A stretch of DNA of 46,987 nt, taken from IMG/VR virus record IMGVR_UViG_3300044568_004272, positions 1-46,987 of that record; one strand, given 5' to 3'. Origin of the DNA: a virus. Every line of letters starts with the position of its first letter. Positions within the stretch are counted from its first letter, which is position 1. Shown here piece by piece: positions 22,504 to 44,960 of the stretch. The position numbers were made by a program, and so were the translations under genes. The notes under the pieces were generated by a model. That model did not search any database, was not told where the DNA came from, and worked only from the letters and a program-made list of their open reading frames with translations.

Positions 22504-23826
22504 ATGCCTCTTTATAGGGATCCAGATGATACTCAACTATATGAGGTTATTAAAGTTCAAACGTGCAGCGGTCAACCTTTAGAGGTTACTTCAGCAGCCA
22601 ATGCAAGCCCTGTGGTTGTTACTACGGCAGGTACTCCGGGCAGCGATGCATTCGGTCGTGCCCGCATGTCTCAACCACTGACCCTGTTTGATTCCAGTCA
22701 TCGTTATAGCGATAACGGGCTGTGGGCAACTGCAACTGGAGTCGGGTCTGATGCAACGTTTAATGCCAATGCAGGCCTTGTAGAACTTAATGTACCAACA
22801 ACGTCTGGCGGTTACGTTAAGAGAGAAACTAAAAAGGTGTTTGCTTACCAGCCGGGGAAATCCCTTTTGGTTCTTTCTACATTTGTTATGGCGCCTGCTA
22901 AAACCAACTTGCGTCAGAGGATTGGTTATTTTGGTGTAAATAATGGACTTTATTTGCAACTGCAAAATTCAACGCTTAGTTTTGTTAAACGCAGTTCTAT
23001 AACCGGAACAGTTGCTGAAACAGCGGTTGATCAAGCTGATTGGAATGTTGACAAGTTAGATGGCACTGGCCCGTCTGGTCTAACGCTTAATATCACTAAA
23101 GCACAAATCTTTTGGATGGATGTTGAATGGTTAGGGCTTGGGACCGTACGCCTTGGTTTTGTTATCAATGGTCTTTTTATTCATTGCCATTCTTTCCACC
23201 ACGCCAACTTAATTGAGAGTACTTATATCACTACAGCATCACTTCCATTGCGTTATGAAATTGAAAACCTTGGTACAACCGCCAGTAGCAGTACGTTAAA
23301 ACAGGTTTGTTCAACTGTTATTTCAGAAGGCGGCTATGAGCTGCGCGGCAGGCAGGGCGCTGTTGGCACTCCCCTTGCTGCAATGCGAGAGCTTACAGCA
23401 ACTGGTGTTTTGTATCCAATTGTTTCTTTGCGTTTAAAAGCTAGTCCTGATCGCCTTGATGCAATTGTTATCCCAACTGCTGTAAGTATTCTTGGTGATG
23501 GCAATAACGCTTTCTTTGAATGGCGTCTGCAAAGTAATTCAACAACATCAGGTGGTACTTGGACGAGTGCCGGTACTGACTCTTCTGTTGAATATAACTT
23601 GAGCGGTGTTAGTTCCAGTGGTGGCCGTACTCTTGCTAAAGGTTACATTTCATCTACTACGCAAAGCAATAATGCAATTGACATCTTAAAAGAAGCCCTG
23701 TTTCAGTTTCAGTTGCAAAGAAATAGTTTTACAAGTACACCAGAAGAATTTAGCCTTCTTGTTCAAACAAAAGTTGCAGGTGATGATGTATATGCATCAA
23801 TTGACTGGGAGGAAATTTCTCTTTGA
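22504..23826 (+). CDS. Large virion structural protein (440 aa)
   Basis: Residues about 48-75 contain DAFGRARMSQPLTLFDSSHRY, a signature I recall from virion structural proteins of many large phages (DAFGRLRVS-P-TLFDS). The rest is beta-rich with LRQRIGYFGVNNGLYLQ and a GTVRLGFVINGLFIHCH segment, typical of receptor-binding or baseplate-associated proteins. It probably acts in the virion (tail/baseplate). An AT-rich divergent region with TATACA lies upstream. Confidence 0.7.
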   Translation: MPLYRDPDDTQLYEVIKVQTCSGQPLEVTSAANASPVVVTTAGTPGSDAFGRARMSQPLTLFDSSHRYSDNGLWATATGVGSDATFNANAGLVELNVPTTSGGYVKRETKKVFAYQPGKSLLVLSTFVMAPAKTNLRQRIGYFGVNNGLYLQLQNSTLSFVKRSSITGTVAETAVDQADWNVDKLDGTGPSGLTLNITKAQIFWMDVEWLGLGTVRLGFVINGLFIHCHSFHHANLIESTYITTASLPLRYEIENLGTTASSSTLKQVCSTVISEGGYELRGRQGAVGTPLAAMRELTATGVLYPIVSLRLKASPDRLDAIVIPTAVSILGDGNNAFFEWRLQSNSTTSGGTWTSAGTDSSVEYNLSGVSSSGGRTLAKGYISSTTQSNNAIDILKEALFQFQLQRNSFTSTPEEFSLLVQTKVAGDDVYASIDWEEISL

Positions 23827-23852: not shown

Positions 23853-24404
23853 ATGTATACCCCTGGTCCTCAAACGGCTCAACAGCTTCCTGTCCCCCAG
23901 GTGCAAGAGGTTCCTGAACCGCAGGATAAACCCAAGGCTCCCGCTAAGTCAAAGAATGGTGATGTCGGGGCCTTCATCCAGCAGTGCATCTCCCTTGCTT
24001 CCTACGTCAAGGAACTTCAAACACAATCCCATCTCATTCACCTGAACTACGAGGGGTCGAACTTCCTCGGGGTGCATCGGTTCCTTGGTAAGCAATACGA
24101 GGCTCATCTTGAACAGTTTGATAAGTTGGGTGAATTTATTCGCAGCATGGACTACTTGATGCCCATGTGTGCCAAGGGATTGGCAGATGCTGGCCCTGGT
24201 ATTCAGCATGTTACCAGCTACAAAGGCACAGAAATGCTCGCTGTGTACTACAAAAACCTAGAAGAGCTGGGCATGAAGACCAAGAAGTTGGAGCCTATTG
24301 CTGCCAAGGTTGGTGCCATCGACATCCAGAACTACATGGCTGAGTTATGTGGGGAAGCATTTAAAGCCGCCTGGCAAATAAAAGCCACACTGAGAAATGG
24401 CTAA
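23853..24404 (+). CDS. Dps-like ferritin (phage-encoded)
   Basis: 183 residues. A Pro-rich N-terminal tail (about residues 1-33) precedes a four-helix Dps-like domain. HLNYEGSNFLGVH...YEAHLEQFDKLGEFI aligns with the Dps signature HWN-xGxNFxxxH...D-xxE. The four ferroxidase residues fall at H63, H75, D90 and E94, with the same spacing (12, 15, 4) as E. coli Dps H51, H63, D78, E82. Dps oxidises and stores iron and can coat DNA. It could protect phage DNA from oxidative damage in a photosynthetic host or act in the virion. It lies next to structural genes and overlaps a Lys-rich peptide gene. Confidence 0.75.
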   Translation: MYTPGPQTAQQLPVPQVQEVPEPQDKPKAPAKSKNGDVGAFIQQCISLASYVKELQTQSHLIHLNYEGSNFLGVHRFLGKQYEAHLEQFDKLGEFIRSMDYLMPMCAKGLADAGPGIQHVTSYKGTEMLAVYYKNLEELGMKTKKLEPIAAKVGAIDIQNYMAELCGEAFKAAWQIKATLRNG

Positions 24405-24510
24405 ATCTAAAAACAAAAAGAAAAAGACGGCTACTGCAAAGCAAAACGCTAAGCAGAATTCTGGTAACGCAACTGCACGTAAAGCAAAGAATGGTGGGAA
24501 GAAAAAATAA
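24397..24510 (+). CDS. Lys-rich histone-like microprotein (37 aa)
   Basis: ATG at 24397 overlaps the Dps stop by 8 nt and runs to TAA at 24508. It is made almost entirely of Lys, Ala, Asn, Thr and Gly (MAKSKNKKKKTATAKQ...), about 15 Lys of 37, and resembles the tails of histone H1 or bacterial HU-like extensions. It would bind DNA nonspecifically. Overlap with the Dps gene implies coupled expression. Confidence 0.6.
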   Translation: MAKSKNKKKKTATAKQNAKQNSGNATARKAKNGGKKK

Positions 24511-24768
24511 TTAATCCACCCAATGTTCAAGCCGGTGGCAGTTACAGCAAAGCGGAATACACTTCTTGATTTCTTCTTCTATCCGTTCCCAGCTGTAGCC
24601 GTGGTTCACCATGTTTGAAATGTTATGGTCTTTGTCTCCAATATGGTGGAACTCCAAGACTCGGTGATCATCGTTTCCGCAACTGTCGCAGGACAAAGTC
24701 TTTTTGTACTCCAAGAACTTGTTTCGATTCTCTTGAAGCTTTGGCTTGGAAGTTGGCACTAAAGCCAA
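24511..24768 (-). CDS. Small HNH endonuclease (85 aa)
   Basis: CDSCG, then EFHHIGDKDHNISNMVNHGYSW, then a Cys-rich IPLCCNCHRLEHW: the two Cys knuckles and the HH...N...H core of a compact HNH nuclease. It is a candidate free-standing homing endonuclease, placed beside the tRNA-Thr and a GIY-YIG-like gene. Convergent with the Lys-rich gene with no gap. Confidence 0.82.
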   Translation of the reverse strand: MALVPTSKPKLQENRNKFLEYKKTLSCDSCGNDDHRVLEFHHIGDKDHNISNMVNHGYSWERIEEEIKKCIPLCCNCHRLEHWVD

Positions 24769-24803: not shown

Positions 24804-24876
24804 AGCTGGATATCGGATTTGAACCGATGACCTGAGACTTACAAAATCCCTGCTGCTACCACTGAGCTAATCCAGC
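24804..24876 (-). tRNA. tRNA-Thr (anticodon TGT)
   Basis: On the minus strand the acceptor GCTGGAT pairs with ATCCAGC. The anticodon arm is GGGAT-TTTGTAA-GTCTC (two wobble pairs), anticodon TGT. The T arm is ATCGG-TTCGAAT-CCGAT. CCA is not encoded. It reads ACA. Its 5' 21 nt overlap the 3' end of the GIY-YIG-like gene, whose TAG stop lies in the D-loop. Confidence 0.9.
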
Positions 24877-25628: not shown

Positions 25629-26300
25629 TTATACAGTTTCATTTGGCGTTTTCCAGAAGTAATCGTCCTGTTCACCAAGCCTTCCCCATTTAGGTGCGCT
25701 TTCGACATCGAAGTACCGTGTAGACACTTTGAAGTCTGGTGTCTTGAGGTTGTGGTTGGTTAACGATGGATCGCACATGCGACAACGATTGTTGGGATAA
25801 GCGCCAATTTGGCCGTTATCCAAAACCACAATGTTATGAGATTTATGTTCATCAGGGAATTCAGCAAAGTAAAAATCTGGTTCATTCCTATGTGGATGAT
25901 AATTGTCAATTGTAAATAAATATGTGCCTTTCATTACACCTGCGCTACGCGTCATCACTTGAAACTCCATATTGAAGATCAAGTTCTTTTCAATGACCGT
26001 AAGACCATGATCGAATCCGTTCCAGAACTGCAGGTCGGTCAGGTCTAAATCGGGGGTGGGTGGTTGTGGTTTGTCTGGATGATCTGAGTCCCAAGCTAAG
26101 AATGCACTGATGGGCAGCTTGTCGTATAGGGCGCCGTATTCAGTTAAATACGTTTCAAAATACAGGGCGCGACCGGTGAGGGACTTGCAAGTCACCCAAT
26201 AGCCGGGAGTGTATTCCCCATGGCCGTCGTGTAGGTCACGCAAGTATTCCCGTCTGACCCAAACCCTTACGGGCGGTACGTTAGCAACAAGTGTTGTCAC
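25629..26300 (-). CDS. Conserved cyanophage protein of unknown function (223 aa)
   Basis: Begins MTTLVANVPPVRVWVRREYLRDLHDG; contains FTIDNYHPHRNEPDFYFAE, then FPDEHKSHN and LDNGQIGAYPNNRCR. I recall similar wording (IDNYHP..., EHKS-N-I-LDNGQ-A-PNNR) in many cyanophage hypothetical proteins. It looks beta-rich and soluble. A minus-strand terminator precedes it, so it has its own promoter or relies on read-through. Confidence 0.65.
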   Translation of the reverse strand: MTTLVANVPPVRVWVRREYLRDLHDGHGEYTPGYWVTCKSLTGRALYFETYLTEYGALYDKLPISAFLAWDSDHPDKPQPPTPDLDLTDLQFWNGFDHGLTVIEKNLIFNMEFQVMTRSAGVMKGTYLFTIDNYHPHRNEPDFYFAEFPDEHKSHNIVVLDNGQIGAYPNNRCRMCDPSLTNHNLKTPDFKVSTRYFDVESAPKWGRLGEQDDYFWKTPNETV

Positions 26301-26424: not shown

Positions 26425-26790
26425 TCACTTTTTCTTTGGTGCGGGTTTAGGAGTTGGTTTTGCTGGCGGCCTGGCGGGGGGTTTGGCCGGAGGTTTGGGA
26501 GCAGGTTTAGTAGGAGGTTTGGCCGGAGGCTTAGGTGCCGGTTTACTTGGCGGTTTGGCGGGAGGCCTCGGTTCTGGCTTGCTGGGGAACCCGGGTGTAG
26601 TAATTTCTTTTTTGGGGGTTACTCCCCGGCGAACCGCGTCTACAGACCCTTTGCCATATCTACCTTCTGCTTCGTTTAAAAAAGTTTCGAAACTTTTGCC
26701 TGGGTTGCTGCGTTCATAATCGCGACGCATGCGATCAGGTGTGTAATAGTCTTGGTTATTTGAAGATTGGCCGCCAGGGAAGAATACCAT
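26425..26790 (-). CDS. Protein with PAKPP repeat tail (121 aa)
   Basis: Residues 1-65 are soluble (SNNQDYYTPDRMRRDYERSNPGKSFETFLNEAEGRYG). From about residue 66 to the end is a Pro/Lys/Ala tail of repeated PxxKPPxKPxPKPP units ending PAPKKK. Such tails are extended and basic and may interact with nucleic acid or membrane surfaces. It belongs to a run of Lys-rich small genes and is possibly a virion component. Confidence 0.6.
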   Translation of the reverse strand: MVFFPGGQSSNNQDYYTPDRMRRDYERSNPGKSFETFLNEAEGRYGKGSVDAVRRGVTPKKEITTPGFPSKPEPRPPAKPPSKPAPKPPAKPPTKPAPKPPAKPPARPPAKPTPKPAPKKK

Positions 26791-41078: not shown

Positions 41079-43571
41079 TTACGTTAGATAATATTGATAA
41101 ACAGCTGGGACAACAGTTGCAGAAGAAGTACTATCAACAATGTATAAAATACTGCCGTAATATCCAACGCAGACTCCAGCAGAACTGGTTGTTTGCAAAA
41201 GAACGCTCAATGACTTACTTTCGTATGCTGCAGTACTTATATCCCATGCAGTAGAACATGAGTATTGATAAACGGTATCGTTTATATTTCCAACAATATA
41301 AAACTTGGTGCCGTCATCTTTAAAAAATAATCCTAATGGAGTAGTTTCTTGTGTTGCAACACTAAATGATTTACTGTCATACGATGCTGTACTTACATCC
41401 CATGCAGTGGAACATGAGTATTGATATATGGTATCGTTTGCAACGCCAACAATATAAAACTTAGTGCCGTCATCTTTGAAAAATAATCCACTTGGATTAG
41501 TTTCTTGCGTTGTAACACTGAATGATTTATTGTCATATGATGCCGTACTTACATCCCATGCCGTAGAACAAGAGTATTGATATACAGTATCGGTTGCGTT
41601 GCCGACTATATAAAATTTAGTGCCATCGTCTTTAAAAAATGCTCCATTTGGAGTAGTGTCTTGCAAGCCAACCCGTGCCCTAGCAAAAGCGCCACTAGCT
41701 GTTTTATTAAAGAAAGCTGTGGTTACATCCCAGGGATTGCTGCAGTCGTATTGAAAAACTGAATCATTTGCGTTACCAGTAACATAAAAACGCGTGCCAT
41801 CTGGTTTAAATGTAATATCTTGTGGAGATGTGTCTTGCAACGCCGCATTCATATTTTTAGCAGTAAAGCCAGCGTTTACGATATCCCAGGCTAGGGGAAG
41901 GTCATACTGCCAAACGGTATCGTTTGTTTGACCAACAATATATAACCTTGTGCCATCAGATTTAAACGCCAATCCATGCCCAGTAACTTCTTGTGCACTA
42001 ACACTAAATGACTTGCTGTCATACGATGCAGTACTTACATCCCATGCTGTAGAACATGAGTATTGATAAATGGCGTCCGATGTAAAACCTAACATGTAAA
42101 ATGTAGTGCCATCATTTTTGAAAACTACTGAACTTGAACTTCCATCTTGTCCACCAACACTAAATGACTTGCTGTCATACGATGCAGTACTTACATCCCA
42201 TGCGGTAGAACATGAGTATTGATAAATGGCATCAGTTGTGTTGCCAATTACATAAAACTTAGTGCCGTCAGGTTTAAAGAATAATCCTGTTGGAGTACTT
42301 TCTTGCGTATTAACACTGAATGATTTATTGTCATACGATGCAGTACTGATATCCCATGCAGTAGAACATGCGTACTGAAAAACCGAATCACTTGTAGTTC
42401 CAACAATATAAAACTTAGTGCCATCATCTTTGAAAAATAATGCTTGCGGATTTGTTTCTTGTGTTTGGACACTAAATGATTTACTGTCATACGATGCAGT
42501 ACTGACATCCCACGCAGTAGAACATGAGTATTGATAGACGGTATCGTTTGTTTGTCCAACAATATAAAACTTGGTCCCATCATCCTTAAAATGCACATCG
42601 GTTGAAAGACCTTCTTGTCCACCAATATAAAACCCACTTCCCGCTTGGTTGTTTGTGCTTACATCCCAAGCTGTAGATAAAGTGAATTCATAGACCCTGT
42701 TATTGGTAGTACCAATTACATATAACTTGGTGCCATCAGATTTAAAACAAAGGCCTGTTGGTGTGCCTTCAAATAAAACCCTGCAGAGTTTACTATCGTA
42801 AGACCCAGTGCTTACATCCCATGCTGTAGAACATGAGTATTGATAGACGGTATCGGTTGCACTGCCTATAATATAAAACTTAGTGCCATCATCCTTAAAA
42901 AATAATCCCTGTGGACTAGTTTCTTGCGTTGCAACACTAAACGATTTACTGTCATACGATGCAGTACTCACATCCCATGCAGTGGAACAGGAGTATTGAT
43001 ATACGGTATCGTTTGTAGTGCCGACAATATAAAACTTAGTACCGTCATCTTTGAAAAATAATCCATTTGGCCCAGTCTCTTGCGCATTAATACTAAATGA
43101 TTTACTGTCATAAGATGCTGTACTTACATCCCATGCTGTATAACAAGAATATTGATAGACGGTATCGTTGGTACTGCCAATAATATAAAACTTAGTACCG
43201 TCATCTTTGAAAAATAATCCATTTGGATTACTTTCTTGCGTATTAACACTGAATGACTTGCTATCATACGATGCAGTACTTACATCCCATGCAGTAGAAC
43301 AAGAGTATTGATAGATGGTATCGTTTGTAGTGCCAACAGTATAAAACTTAGTTCCATCAGTACTGAATTGAACGTCTTGAAAAGCAGTTTCTGATAATCC
43401 AAGCGGCCATTGCTTATTCGTGTAATACCCCTTGTCCACTTCCCAGGGTAGTCCAGTCCACTCGCCATCCCGGGTGAATTGCCCTTGGTCATAAATCTCC
43501 CACATCCCAGGTTTACCCGAGGAGATTTGGCCGTAACCAACAGGTTTTTTACCGATGTAATTACCTTTCAT
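41079..43571 (-). CDS. Tail fibre with about 15 beta-propeller-like repeats
   Basis: 830 residues. The N-terminal segment (GKKPVGYGQISSGKPGMWEIYDQGQFTRDGEWTGLPWEV) resembles the attachment domain of phage fibres. Then 14 regular and one degenerate copy of a 52-residue unit follow: FFKDDGTKFYIVG-TNDTVYQYSCSTAWDVSTASYD then SKSFSVQTQE. The DGTKFY turn and Trp-Asp motif suggest beta-propeller blades (two 7-bladed propellers would use 14). It probably binds host surface polysaccharide. It is paralogous to the upstream gene at 43587-44960, and the repeats are conserved at DNA level. Confidence 0.8.
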   Translation of the reverse strand: MKGNYIGKKPVGYGQISSGKPGMWEIYDQGQFTRDGEWTGLPWEVDKGYYTNKQWPLGLSETAFQDVQFSTDGTKFYTVGTTNDTIYQYSCSTAWDVSTASYDSKSFSVNTQESNPNGLFFKDDGTKFYIIGSTNDTVYQYSCYTAWDVSTASYDSKSFSINAQETGPNGLFFKDDGTKFYIVGTTNDTVYQYSCSTAWDVSTASYDSKSFSVATQETSPQGLFFKDDGTKFYIIGSATDTVYQYSCSTAWDVSTGSYDSKLCRVLFEGTPTGLCFKSDGTKLYVIGTTNNRVYEFTLSTAWDVSTNNQAGSGFYIGGQEGLSTDVHFKDDGTKFYIVGQTNDTVYQYSCSTAWDVSTASYDSKSFSVQTQETNPQALFFKDDGTKFYIVGTTSDSVFQYACSTAWDISTASYDNKSFSVNTQESTPTGLFFKPDGTKFYVIGNTTDAIYQYSCSTAWDVSTASYDSKSFSVGGQDGSSSSVVFKNDGTTFYMLGFTSDAIYQYSCSTAWDVSTASYDSKSFSVSAQEVTGHGLAFKSDGTRLYIVGQTNDTVWQYDLPLAWDIVNAGFTAKNMNAALQDTSPQDITFKPDGTRFYVTGNANDSVFQYDCSNPWDVTTAFFNKTASGAFARARVGLQDTTPNGAFFKDDGTKFYIVGNATDTVYQYSCSTAWDVSTASYDNKSFSVTTQETNPSGLFFKDDGTKFYIVGVANDTIYQYSCSTAWDVSTASYDSKSFSVATQETTPLGLFFKDDGTKFYIVGNINDTVYQYSCSTAWDISTAAYESKSLSVLLQTTSSAGVCVGYYGSILYIVDSTSSATVVPAVYQYYLT

Positions 43572-43586
43572 CTTTTTATTTTTTCC

Positions 43587-44960
43587 TTATTCTAATAGAA
43601 GAGAGTATTGATAAACCGTATCAAATCCTGTGCCTACAATATAAAACTTGGTGCCGTCAGATTTAAAAAATAAAGTTTGTGGAGCATTTTCTTGCGTATT
43701 AACACTGAATGACTTGCTATCATATGATGCAGTACTTACATCCCATGCGGTAGAACAAGAGTATTGATAAACGGTATCGTTTGTAATACCAACAATATAA
43801 AATTTAGTGCCGTCATCTTTAAAAAATATACCAGTTGGGGCATTGTCCTGTGTTACAACACTGAATGACTTACTGTCATACGATGCAGTACTTATGTCCC
43901 ATGCCGTAGAACAAGAGTATTGATAGACTGTATCGTTTGTATTACCAACAATATAAAATTTAGTCCCGTCATCTTTAAAAAATATACCAGTTGGGGCATT
44001 GTCCTGTGTTACAACACTGAATGACTTACTGTCATACGATGCAGTACTTATGTCCCATGCCGTAGAACAAGAGTATTGATATACGGTATCGTTTGTATTA
44101 CCAATGATATAGAACTTAGTGCCATCAGATTTAAAAAACAATCCTGTTGGATTAGTTTCTTGCGTTGTAACACTGAATGATTTACTGTCATACGATGCTG
44201 TGCTTACATCCCATGCTGTAGAACATGAGTATTGATATACTGTATCGTTTGTGGCTCCAACAATATAAAATTTGGTGCCATCAGTTTTAAAAGTAAGATC
44301 TTGAGGAGAACCATCTTGTCCACCCACATAGAAATAAGCGGCATAAGCCGTACTAACATCCCAGGGAGTTAATAGAGAGTATTCAAGTACGGTATCGTTT
44401 GTATTACCAATGATATAGAACTTAGTGCCATCTGATTTAAAAAACAGTCCTCCAGGACTAGTTTCCTGTGTTCCAACACTAAATGATTTACTGTCATACG
44501 ATGCAGTACTTACATCCCATGCGGTAGAACAAGAGTATTGATAGACGGTATCGTTTGTAATACCGACAATATAAAACTTAGTGCCGTCAGGTTTAAAACC
44601 TATTGCGCGTGGGCTAGTCTCTTCGGCATTAACACTAAATGACTTGTTGTCATATGAAGCAGTATTTACGTCCCATGGAATAAAACATGAGTATTGATAA
44701 ACAGTTCTATTTGTTTGACCAACAATATAAAATTGGGTGCCATCGGATTTAAAATATAGGTCAACAAAACCGGTATCTTGCGCAGTAACACTAACCATTG
44801 GAAAATCAGGCCGCGCCCCGGCCAATCCCCATGCTTCCGGCCATGTCGTATCGATAATACGATCCACCTGTTGAGACAGCTTCCACATTCCAGACCACTG
44901 AATGCCAGTGCGGGGTGGACGAGCACCTGCGTAACCAGCCTCAAAAGTTTCAAGTGACAT
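43587..44960 (-). CDS. Tail fibre with about 8 propeller-like repeats
   Basis: 457 residues. A 60-residue N-terminal domain (FEAGYAGARPPRTGIQWSGMWKLSQQVDRI...WPEAWGLAGARPD) is followed by eight 52-residue units like those of the 41079-43571 protein. The two proteins are tandem paralogues separated by 15 bp. Two adjacent units share an identical 116-bp DNA block (43810-43925 and 43966-44081), a sign of recent unit duplication. Probable receptor-binding fibre. Confidence 0.78.
   Translation of the reverse strand: MSLETFEAGYAGARPPRTGIQWSGMWKLSQQVDRIIDTTWPEAWGLAGARPDFPMVSVTAQDTGFVDLYFKSDGTQFYIVGQTNRTVYQYSCFIPWDVNTASYDNKSFSVNAEETSPRAIGFKPDGTKFYIVGITNDTVYQYSCSTAWDVSTASYDSKSFSVGTQETSPGGLFFKSDGTKFYIIGNTNDTVLEYSLLTPWDVSTAYAAYFYVGGQDGSPQDLTFKTDGTKFYIVGATNDTVYQYSCSTAWDVSTASYDSKSFSVTTQETNPTGLFFKSDGTKFYIIGNTNDTVYQYSCSTAWDISTASYDSKSFSVVTQDNAPTGIFFKDDGTKFYIVGNTNDTVYQYSCSTAWDISTASYDSKSFSVVTQDNAPTGIFFKDDGTKFYIVGITNDTVYQYSCSTAWDVSTASYDSKSFSVNTQENAPQTLFFKSDGTKFYIVGTGFDTVYQYSLLLE
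43810..44081 (-). repeat. Tandem duplication inside tail fibre gene
   Basis: The 116-bp block 43810-43925 recurs exactly at 43966-44081, a 156-bp offset equal to one 52-residue blade. Other blades differ by many substitutions, so this copy is the youngest. Confidence 0.85.

Follow-up and report, generated by a model that had tools for sequence, protein, structure and literature searches.

Dps-like proteins of phages have been described before. As far as the accessible parts of the sources go, they are known in Lactobacillus phages (PMC6669764) and in the 'Gratiaviridae' phages of the gut (PMC8008677), and phage S-SRM01 carries such a protein according to the annotation of its record. The reference genome of cyanophage S-EIV1 (KJ410740.1) already holds the gene studied here, annotated as 'DNA-binding ferritin-like'; the S-EIV1 record places thymidylate synthase, a family A DNA polymerase, an ssDNA-binding protein, a primase, a SAM decarboxylase and a glycosyltransferase around it. 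The literature on cyanophage Dps and ferritins was searched with a coverage that excluded the S-EIV1 genome paper, and no description of this protein was found. The stretch of DNA analysed here (the window) is a virus record of 46,987 bases, the gene order of which is similar to that of S-EIV1, the genes of the two having been paired by reading the list of open reading frames and not by a gene-by-gene search. The window phage, which infects freshwater cyanobacteria, is a member of the S-EIV1 cyanophage lineage. Coordinates of the features discussed are collated in Table 1.

Table 1. Features of the dps locus in the window, with strand and supporting evidence.
Feature	Position	Strand	Evidence or remark
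Virion structural protein gene	22504..23826	+	phrog_1645, E 1.2e-139; upstream neighbour of dps
Dps-family miniferritin gene (predicted), 183 aa	23853..24404	+	PF00210, phrog_3636, AlphaFold2 model, Dps as best solved matches
Basic stretch KPKAPAKSKN in flexible N-terminal tail	23928..23957	+	conserved; possible DNA contact
Codons spanning ligands H63, H75, D90, E94	24039..24134	+	invariant in 82/82; aligned with E. coli Dps, SU10, LP65
Lys-rich peptide gene, 37 aa	24397..24510	+	ATG overlaps dps stop by 8 nt; synonymous excess; family members
Small HNH endonuclease gene	24511..24768	-	phrog_2255, E 4e-21; closes the plus-strand slot
Basic protein, 121 aa, PKPAPK-rich	26425-26790	-	small basic neighbour
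Basic protein, 68 aa	26830-27036	-	phrog_14910; cluster in 27/82 loci
Basic protein, 94 aa	27036-27320	-	DUF5872-like (below cut-off) / phrog_17747; cluster in 34/82 loci

The dps reading frame runs from an ATG to a TAA codon. Its product was matched to the Pfam family Ferritin (E 2.7e-10; the score of 40.8 bits exceeds the cut-off of 24.5) and to phrog_3636 (E 9.7e-27), which carries the PHROG label 'DNA binding protein'; the NCBIfam Dps models gave weak matches, far under their cut-offs. A phmmer search against solved structures returned 3kwo (E 4.6e-6), neutrophil-activating protein (NAP) and TpF1. The AlphaFold2 monomer model, calculated with 62 sequences (pLDDT 81.1, 97 residues at 90 or above), contains helices at residues 38-65, 71-98, 106-113, 125-152 and 156-182, four of them long and one (106-113) a short BC helix, and thus presents a Dps-like helical bundle and not an unrelated fold. 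With Foldseek, 136 PDB chains were matched at E ≤ 0.001; among the matches listed, 50 of 50 were Dps-type proteins, with TM scores on the target of 0.73-0.91. Alignment with VIA-align gave Z values of about 19-21 to solved Dps-type miniferritins (for MrgA 21.0, with 1.6 Å over 145 residues; for T. elongatus Dps 20.5), above the warning level of about 13 that applies to helical bundles. The initial annotation had called a Dps-like ferritin of 183 residues, and both the family matches and the model bear this out: the gene is predicted to encode a Dps-family miniferritin with a variant site, one more example of an established type of protein. As a separate observation, matches in BFVD included uncultured phage proteins named 'Prohead protease' (333, 432 and 763 aa) and other long proteins with a Dps-like domain in them, a hint that such domains may be fused to head proteins.

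Relatives were collected from viral contigs, in which 214 of 219 stretches encoded one. The best 80 of the 214 were retained and yielded 63 distinct sequences in this first scan; after S-EIV1-like relatives had been joined the set comprised 82, the fragments L192 and L193 (<150 aa) being dropped and the 162-aa fragment L189 retained. Dps ferroxidase sites lie between subunits. Four ferroxidase residues, H63, H75, D90 and E94, had been reported for the window protein at the spacing of E. coli Dps; alignment with the protein of E. coli MG1655 confirmed both the positions and the spacing (12, 15 and 4 residues). All four are invariant in the 63 sequences of the first scan and in all 82 of the final set, none being absent from any close homologue at core identities between members down to 52%. 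Two further elements had gone unmentioned, the fifth ligand and the neighbouring Trp (presumably D67 and W52 in E. coli numbering), and these are not conserved in the phage clade. Position 64, directly after the first His, is L in 68 and F in 14 of the 82 sequences, and position 79, four after the second His, is K in 51, G in 30 and R in one. At this +4 position E. coli, SU10 and LP65 carry D, and 3kwo, NAP and TpF1 carry E. At +5, D or E is found in 67 of the 82; the window has K there. A canonical five-ligand Dps centre, which defines a subset of the family and was not required for membership here, was therefore found in none of the 82 sequences, since all of them lack both the Trp and the acid at +4, and because of these replacements the protein is best regarded as a Dps family member with a variant, non-canonical site, the ferroxidase activity of which may be weaker or different. 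For Dps enzymology, this clade-wide change is a clean variant supplied by nature.

The same replacements in all 82 sequences, taken with the 'DNA binding protein' label and with other residues that never vary in the lineage (H60, H85, D100 and C106 among them), would also suit a Dps fold that has been repurposed for a DNA-binding or structural role and performs hardly any iron chemistry or none, the remaining ligands being kept for the subunit interface or for a metal such as Zn. This explanation is considered improbable: the four ligands never vary, and in an alignment of the window protein and two relatives with E. coli, SU10 and LP65 Dps, no columns were invariant except M1, F71 and these four. 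The behaviour of the N-terminal tail points the same way. This tail comprises 37 residues, is rich in Pro and Gln, has a net charge of about -0.5 and carries a KPK.P.KSK stretch immediately before helix A; in the model, the pLDDT falls below 50 at residues 29-35. Among the 82 sequences K26 is kept in 79, K28 in 80 and K34 in 81, and position 32 is K in 72 and R in 10. The basic patch is missing from the divergent members L318 and L319, which keep the ligands (the ligand pattern was found by a pattern-search script in 11 of the 11 loci of this comparison), so the iron site is the more conserved feature. DNA binding through the basic tail is possible, and it may not be general, because divergent members lack the Lys tail.

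The primase was used as an independent marker of the lineage. At least 80 primase loci were found, and 18 records were searched for Dps, namely two with a 100% identical primase and 16 whose contigs measure 45 kb or more. Dps was present in 13 of the 18, and in seven of the eight primase-selected records of at least 70 kb; an 84.5-kb lineage record (G035) gave zero ferritin matches. Records L229 and L230, the primases of which are 100% identical to that of the window, gave no dps match within their 37-38 kb, and other Dps-negative primase records may be fragments. Dps is near-universal in the S-EIV1 cyanophage lineage. In this widespread group of cyanophages it counts as near-core and not as a gene picked up sporadically, and this status makes iron and oxidant control in cyanophage infection open to direct testing. 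Recent capture of a Dps from a cyanobacterial host was considered and found no support: solved cyanobacterial Dps proteins are about 13-16% identical in structural alignments, the best sequence match of the window protein is the Dps-like 3kwo, which we take to be from Campylobacter, and not a cyanobacterial protein, and no relative turned up when contigs from the genomes of bacteria and archaea were scanned with strict patterns.

The position of dps is conserved as well. The adjacent gene that the initial annotation had taken for virion structural does match PHROG 1645, and this structural gene (cluster 1) is present in 66 of the 82 dps loci; the HNH gene (cluster 2) is present in 64, on the minus strand every time. 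These counts include loci that end at contig ends, and the crude gene caller used recovered dps in 81 of the 82. What lies between dps and the HNH gene is highly variable, and in many loci this slot holds a long plus-strand gene that starts inside the dps stop. The long slot genes (for example those of L005, L033, L044 and L072) fall into several families, and cluster 19 also occurs on the minus strand nearby. Six slot genes were tested, with zero Pfam matches and no convincing match among PHROGs. The slot gene of S-EIV1 (L082, 15474-16943, 489 aa) is annotated as a sulfate adenylyltransferase; it too had no Pfam match, and the label looks wrong.

Beyond the HNH gene of the window lies a tRNA-Thr (tgt) on the minus strand (24804-24876), followed on the same strand by a conserved gene of 223 aa (25629-26300) that matches PHROG 3704 'ferredoxin' (E 5.2e-97) and had no Pfam match. 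The three small basic proteins further on (Table 1) are neighbours of dps and candidate members of a module at most; the 94-aa protein has relatives in HMO-2011, HTVC033P and Roseobacter phages. Elsewhere in the window, two long minus-strand proteins (41079-44960), in which a unit of about 40 aa (DGTKFYIVG...YQYSCSTAWDVSTASYDSKSFSV) recurs, were noted in the list of open reading frames.

The 37-aa peptide encoded behind dps contains 13 Lys (35%; 14 basic residues when its Arg is counted), fewer than the figure of about 40 percent given in the initial annotation, which was right about the overlap of its start with the dps stop. No family was matched in Pfam, PHROGs or NCBIfam, so no known DNA-binding family was matched, and another member of the peptide family likewise gave none in Pfam and PHROGs. 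A short, low-complexity reading frame that has no family match could be a chance Lys-rich sequence and no gene at all, and this possibility is judged extremely remote on two grounds. A scan of viral contigs with the middle motif returned the peptide family in 21 further contigs, as homologues of 35-39 aa that keep start and stop in differing gene contexts (one runs off a contig end). Secondly, 12 substitutions separate the window and L030 peptide genes, of which 11 are synonymous (P 1.1e-6) and 11 fall on third codon positions; P values for other pairs ranged from 2.8e-6 to 0.0055. This substitution pattern rules out a non-coding sequence, and because of it the peptide is read as a real gene, evidently under purifying selection. 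A tblastn search of the peptide against phage records returned nothing, a result robbed of weight by the low-complexity filter. The family shares the core AKQNAKQNxGNA (window 24397-24510; L200-L216), and a protein with an LPGGG motif comes next after many of the peptide genes. The AKQNAKQN peptides form a small, conserved and unannotated phage gene family of a kind that a gene caller with a minimum length would miss.

The placement of this family bears on the proposal, made in the initial annotation, of a module for DNA compaction or iron/oxidant protection. With the window counted, the family occurs 22 times. In 11 cases the peptide comes after the structural gene and dps does not intervene (a 66-aa reading frame separates structural gene and peptide in three of these), in three it lies directly after dps, in three it lies farther downstream of dps and in five neither gene was recognised upstream. 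The phrog_1645 structural gene is the commonest upstream neighbour. Direct adjacency to dps was found in three of the 82 dps loci (window, L030 and L031), and the distances downstream of dps are 1.1 kb in L072, 3.2 kb in L073 and about 0.5 kb in G021. Among the 21 further peptide contigs, five carry an S-EIV1-type Dps, six carry a distant Dps elsewhere and ten gave none. The motif is present in two of 11 long records with an S-EIV1-type Dps and absent from nine, S-EIV1 among them; this count leaves out G013, where peptide and distant Dps are 24.6 kb apart.

Joint compaction of the phage DNA by Dps and the Lys-rich peptide, with one or both packaged in the virion, would agree with the overlap of the two genes, with the structural gene upstream and with the peptides found beside that gene in 11 of the 22 cases. 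It would also agree with the six peptides of the SU10 Dps-domain protein detected by mass spectrometry in PEG-precipitated phage, as stated in the part of the source available (PMC4281155). According to the same text, this SU10 material had undergone no CsCl purification, and DNA polymerase and further proteins foreign to the virion were present in it as well; for this reason the detection is no proof of a virion location. Given the rarity of the pairing among dps loci, the absence of the motif from most long dps-bearing records and the separation of the two genes in G013, joint compaction is thought unlikely. A dedicated coupling of dps and peptide is rejected, since the two abut in only three of 82 loci and half of the peptide genes follow the structural gene without dps. 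The peptide gene probably belongs to the virion-structural cassette as a small gene in its own right, and happens to adjoin dps in this branch. Of the proposed module, then, the Dps ferritin, the real basic peptide and the adjacent structural gene stand, and the dedicated pair of Dps and polycation does not.

The distant Dps of the six further peptide-bearing phage records (for example L222, 1303-2054, minus strand) differs at the site: the Trp after the first His is kept, and Q and E stand at +4 and +5. The beginning of its gene overlaps the end of the gene for a basic protein of 95 aa (phrog_7595). The placing of Dps beside a small basic protein thus recurs, which is a correlation only. NblA, an idea formed by eye for a 78-aa gene near the Dps of this sister lineage, was dropped, as the gene had no Pfam or PHROG match.

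The phage Dps is probably a miniferritin that acts in the infected cell, where it would oxidise iron, store it and protect DNA, the Lys-rich peptide being a separate gene of the cassette. Its subunits would assemble into a Dps-type shell in which Fe(II) would be bound at sites formed by H63 and H75 of one subunit and D90 and E94 of its neighbour. The bound Fe(II) would be oxidised, preferably by H2O2 and possibly by O2, and stored as a ferric mineral. Iron and peroxide that could damage replicating phage DNA and proteins would in this way be removed from a light-driven, oxidant-rich cyanobacterial cell, and the basic stretch of the tail may let the shell sit on DNA. The latent period of S-EIV1, described as long (>7 days) in the accessible part of the source (PMC8790148), fits a Dps that handles iron and peroxide in the infected cell. 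Little credence is given to a broader arrangement in which the late virion cassette of S-EIV1-type phages encodes a basic, nucleoid-like set that coats the phage DNA in the late phase of infection and is partly carried in the particle. If true, this set would combine a Dps shell whose iron site is a variant, the hitherto unnamed AKQNAKQN polycation of 35-39 aa tied to the structural gene and up to three other small Lys-rich proteins.

Compared with known systems, the window protein shares PHROG 3636 and the same four ligands with CDS67 of Kuravirus SU10 and orf120 of LP65, which differ in keeping the Trp and the Asp at +4, are 12-14% identical to it and lie in different neighbourhoods. With bacterial Dps (E. 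coli, 3kwo, H. pylori NAP and TpF1) it has in common the predicted fold and the four ligands at the same spacing, whereas identities are about 8-22% and the phage clade is set apart by the changed +4 residue, the replaced Trp and the Pro/Gln-rich tail of about 37 aa. Among these known systems, the S-EIV1 protein AHV82153.1 belongs to the same lineage as the window phage. There the dps gene is followed by the 489-aa gene, the start of which overlaps the dps stop, and the peptide motif is absent from the genome; the protein itself is an ortholog with 74.1% identity across 86% of the query, encoded in a syntenic genome and carrying the same four ligands.
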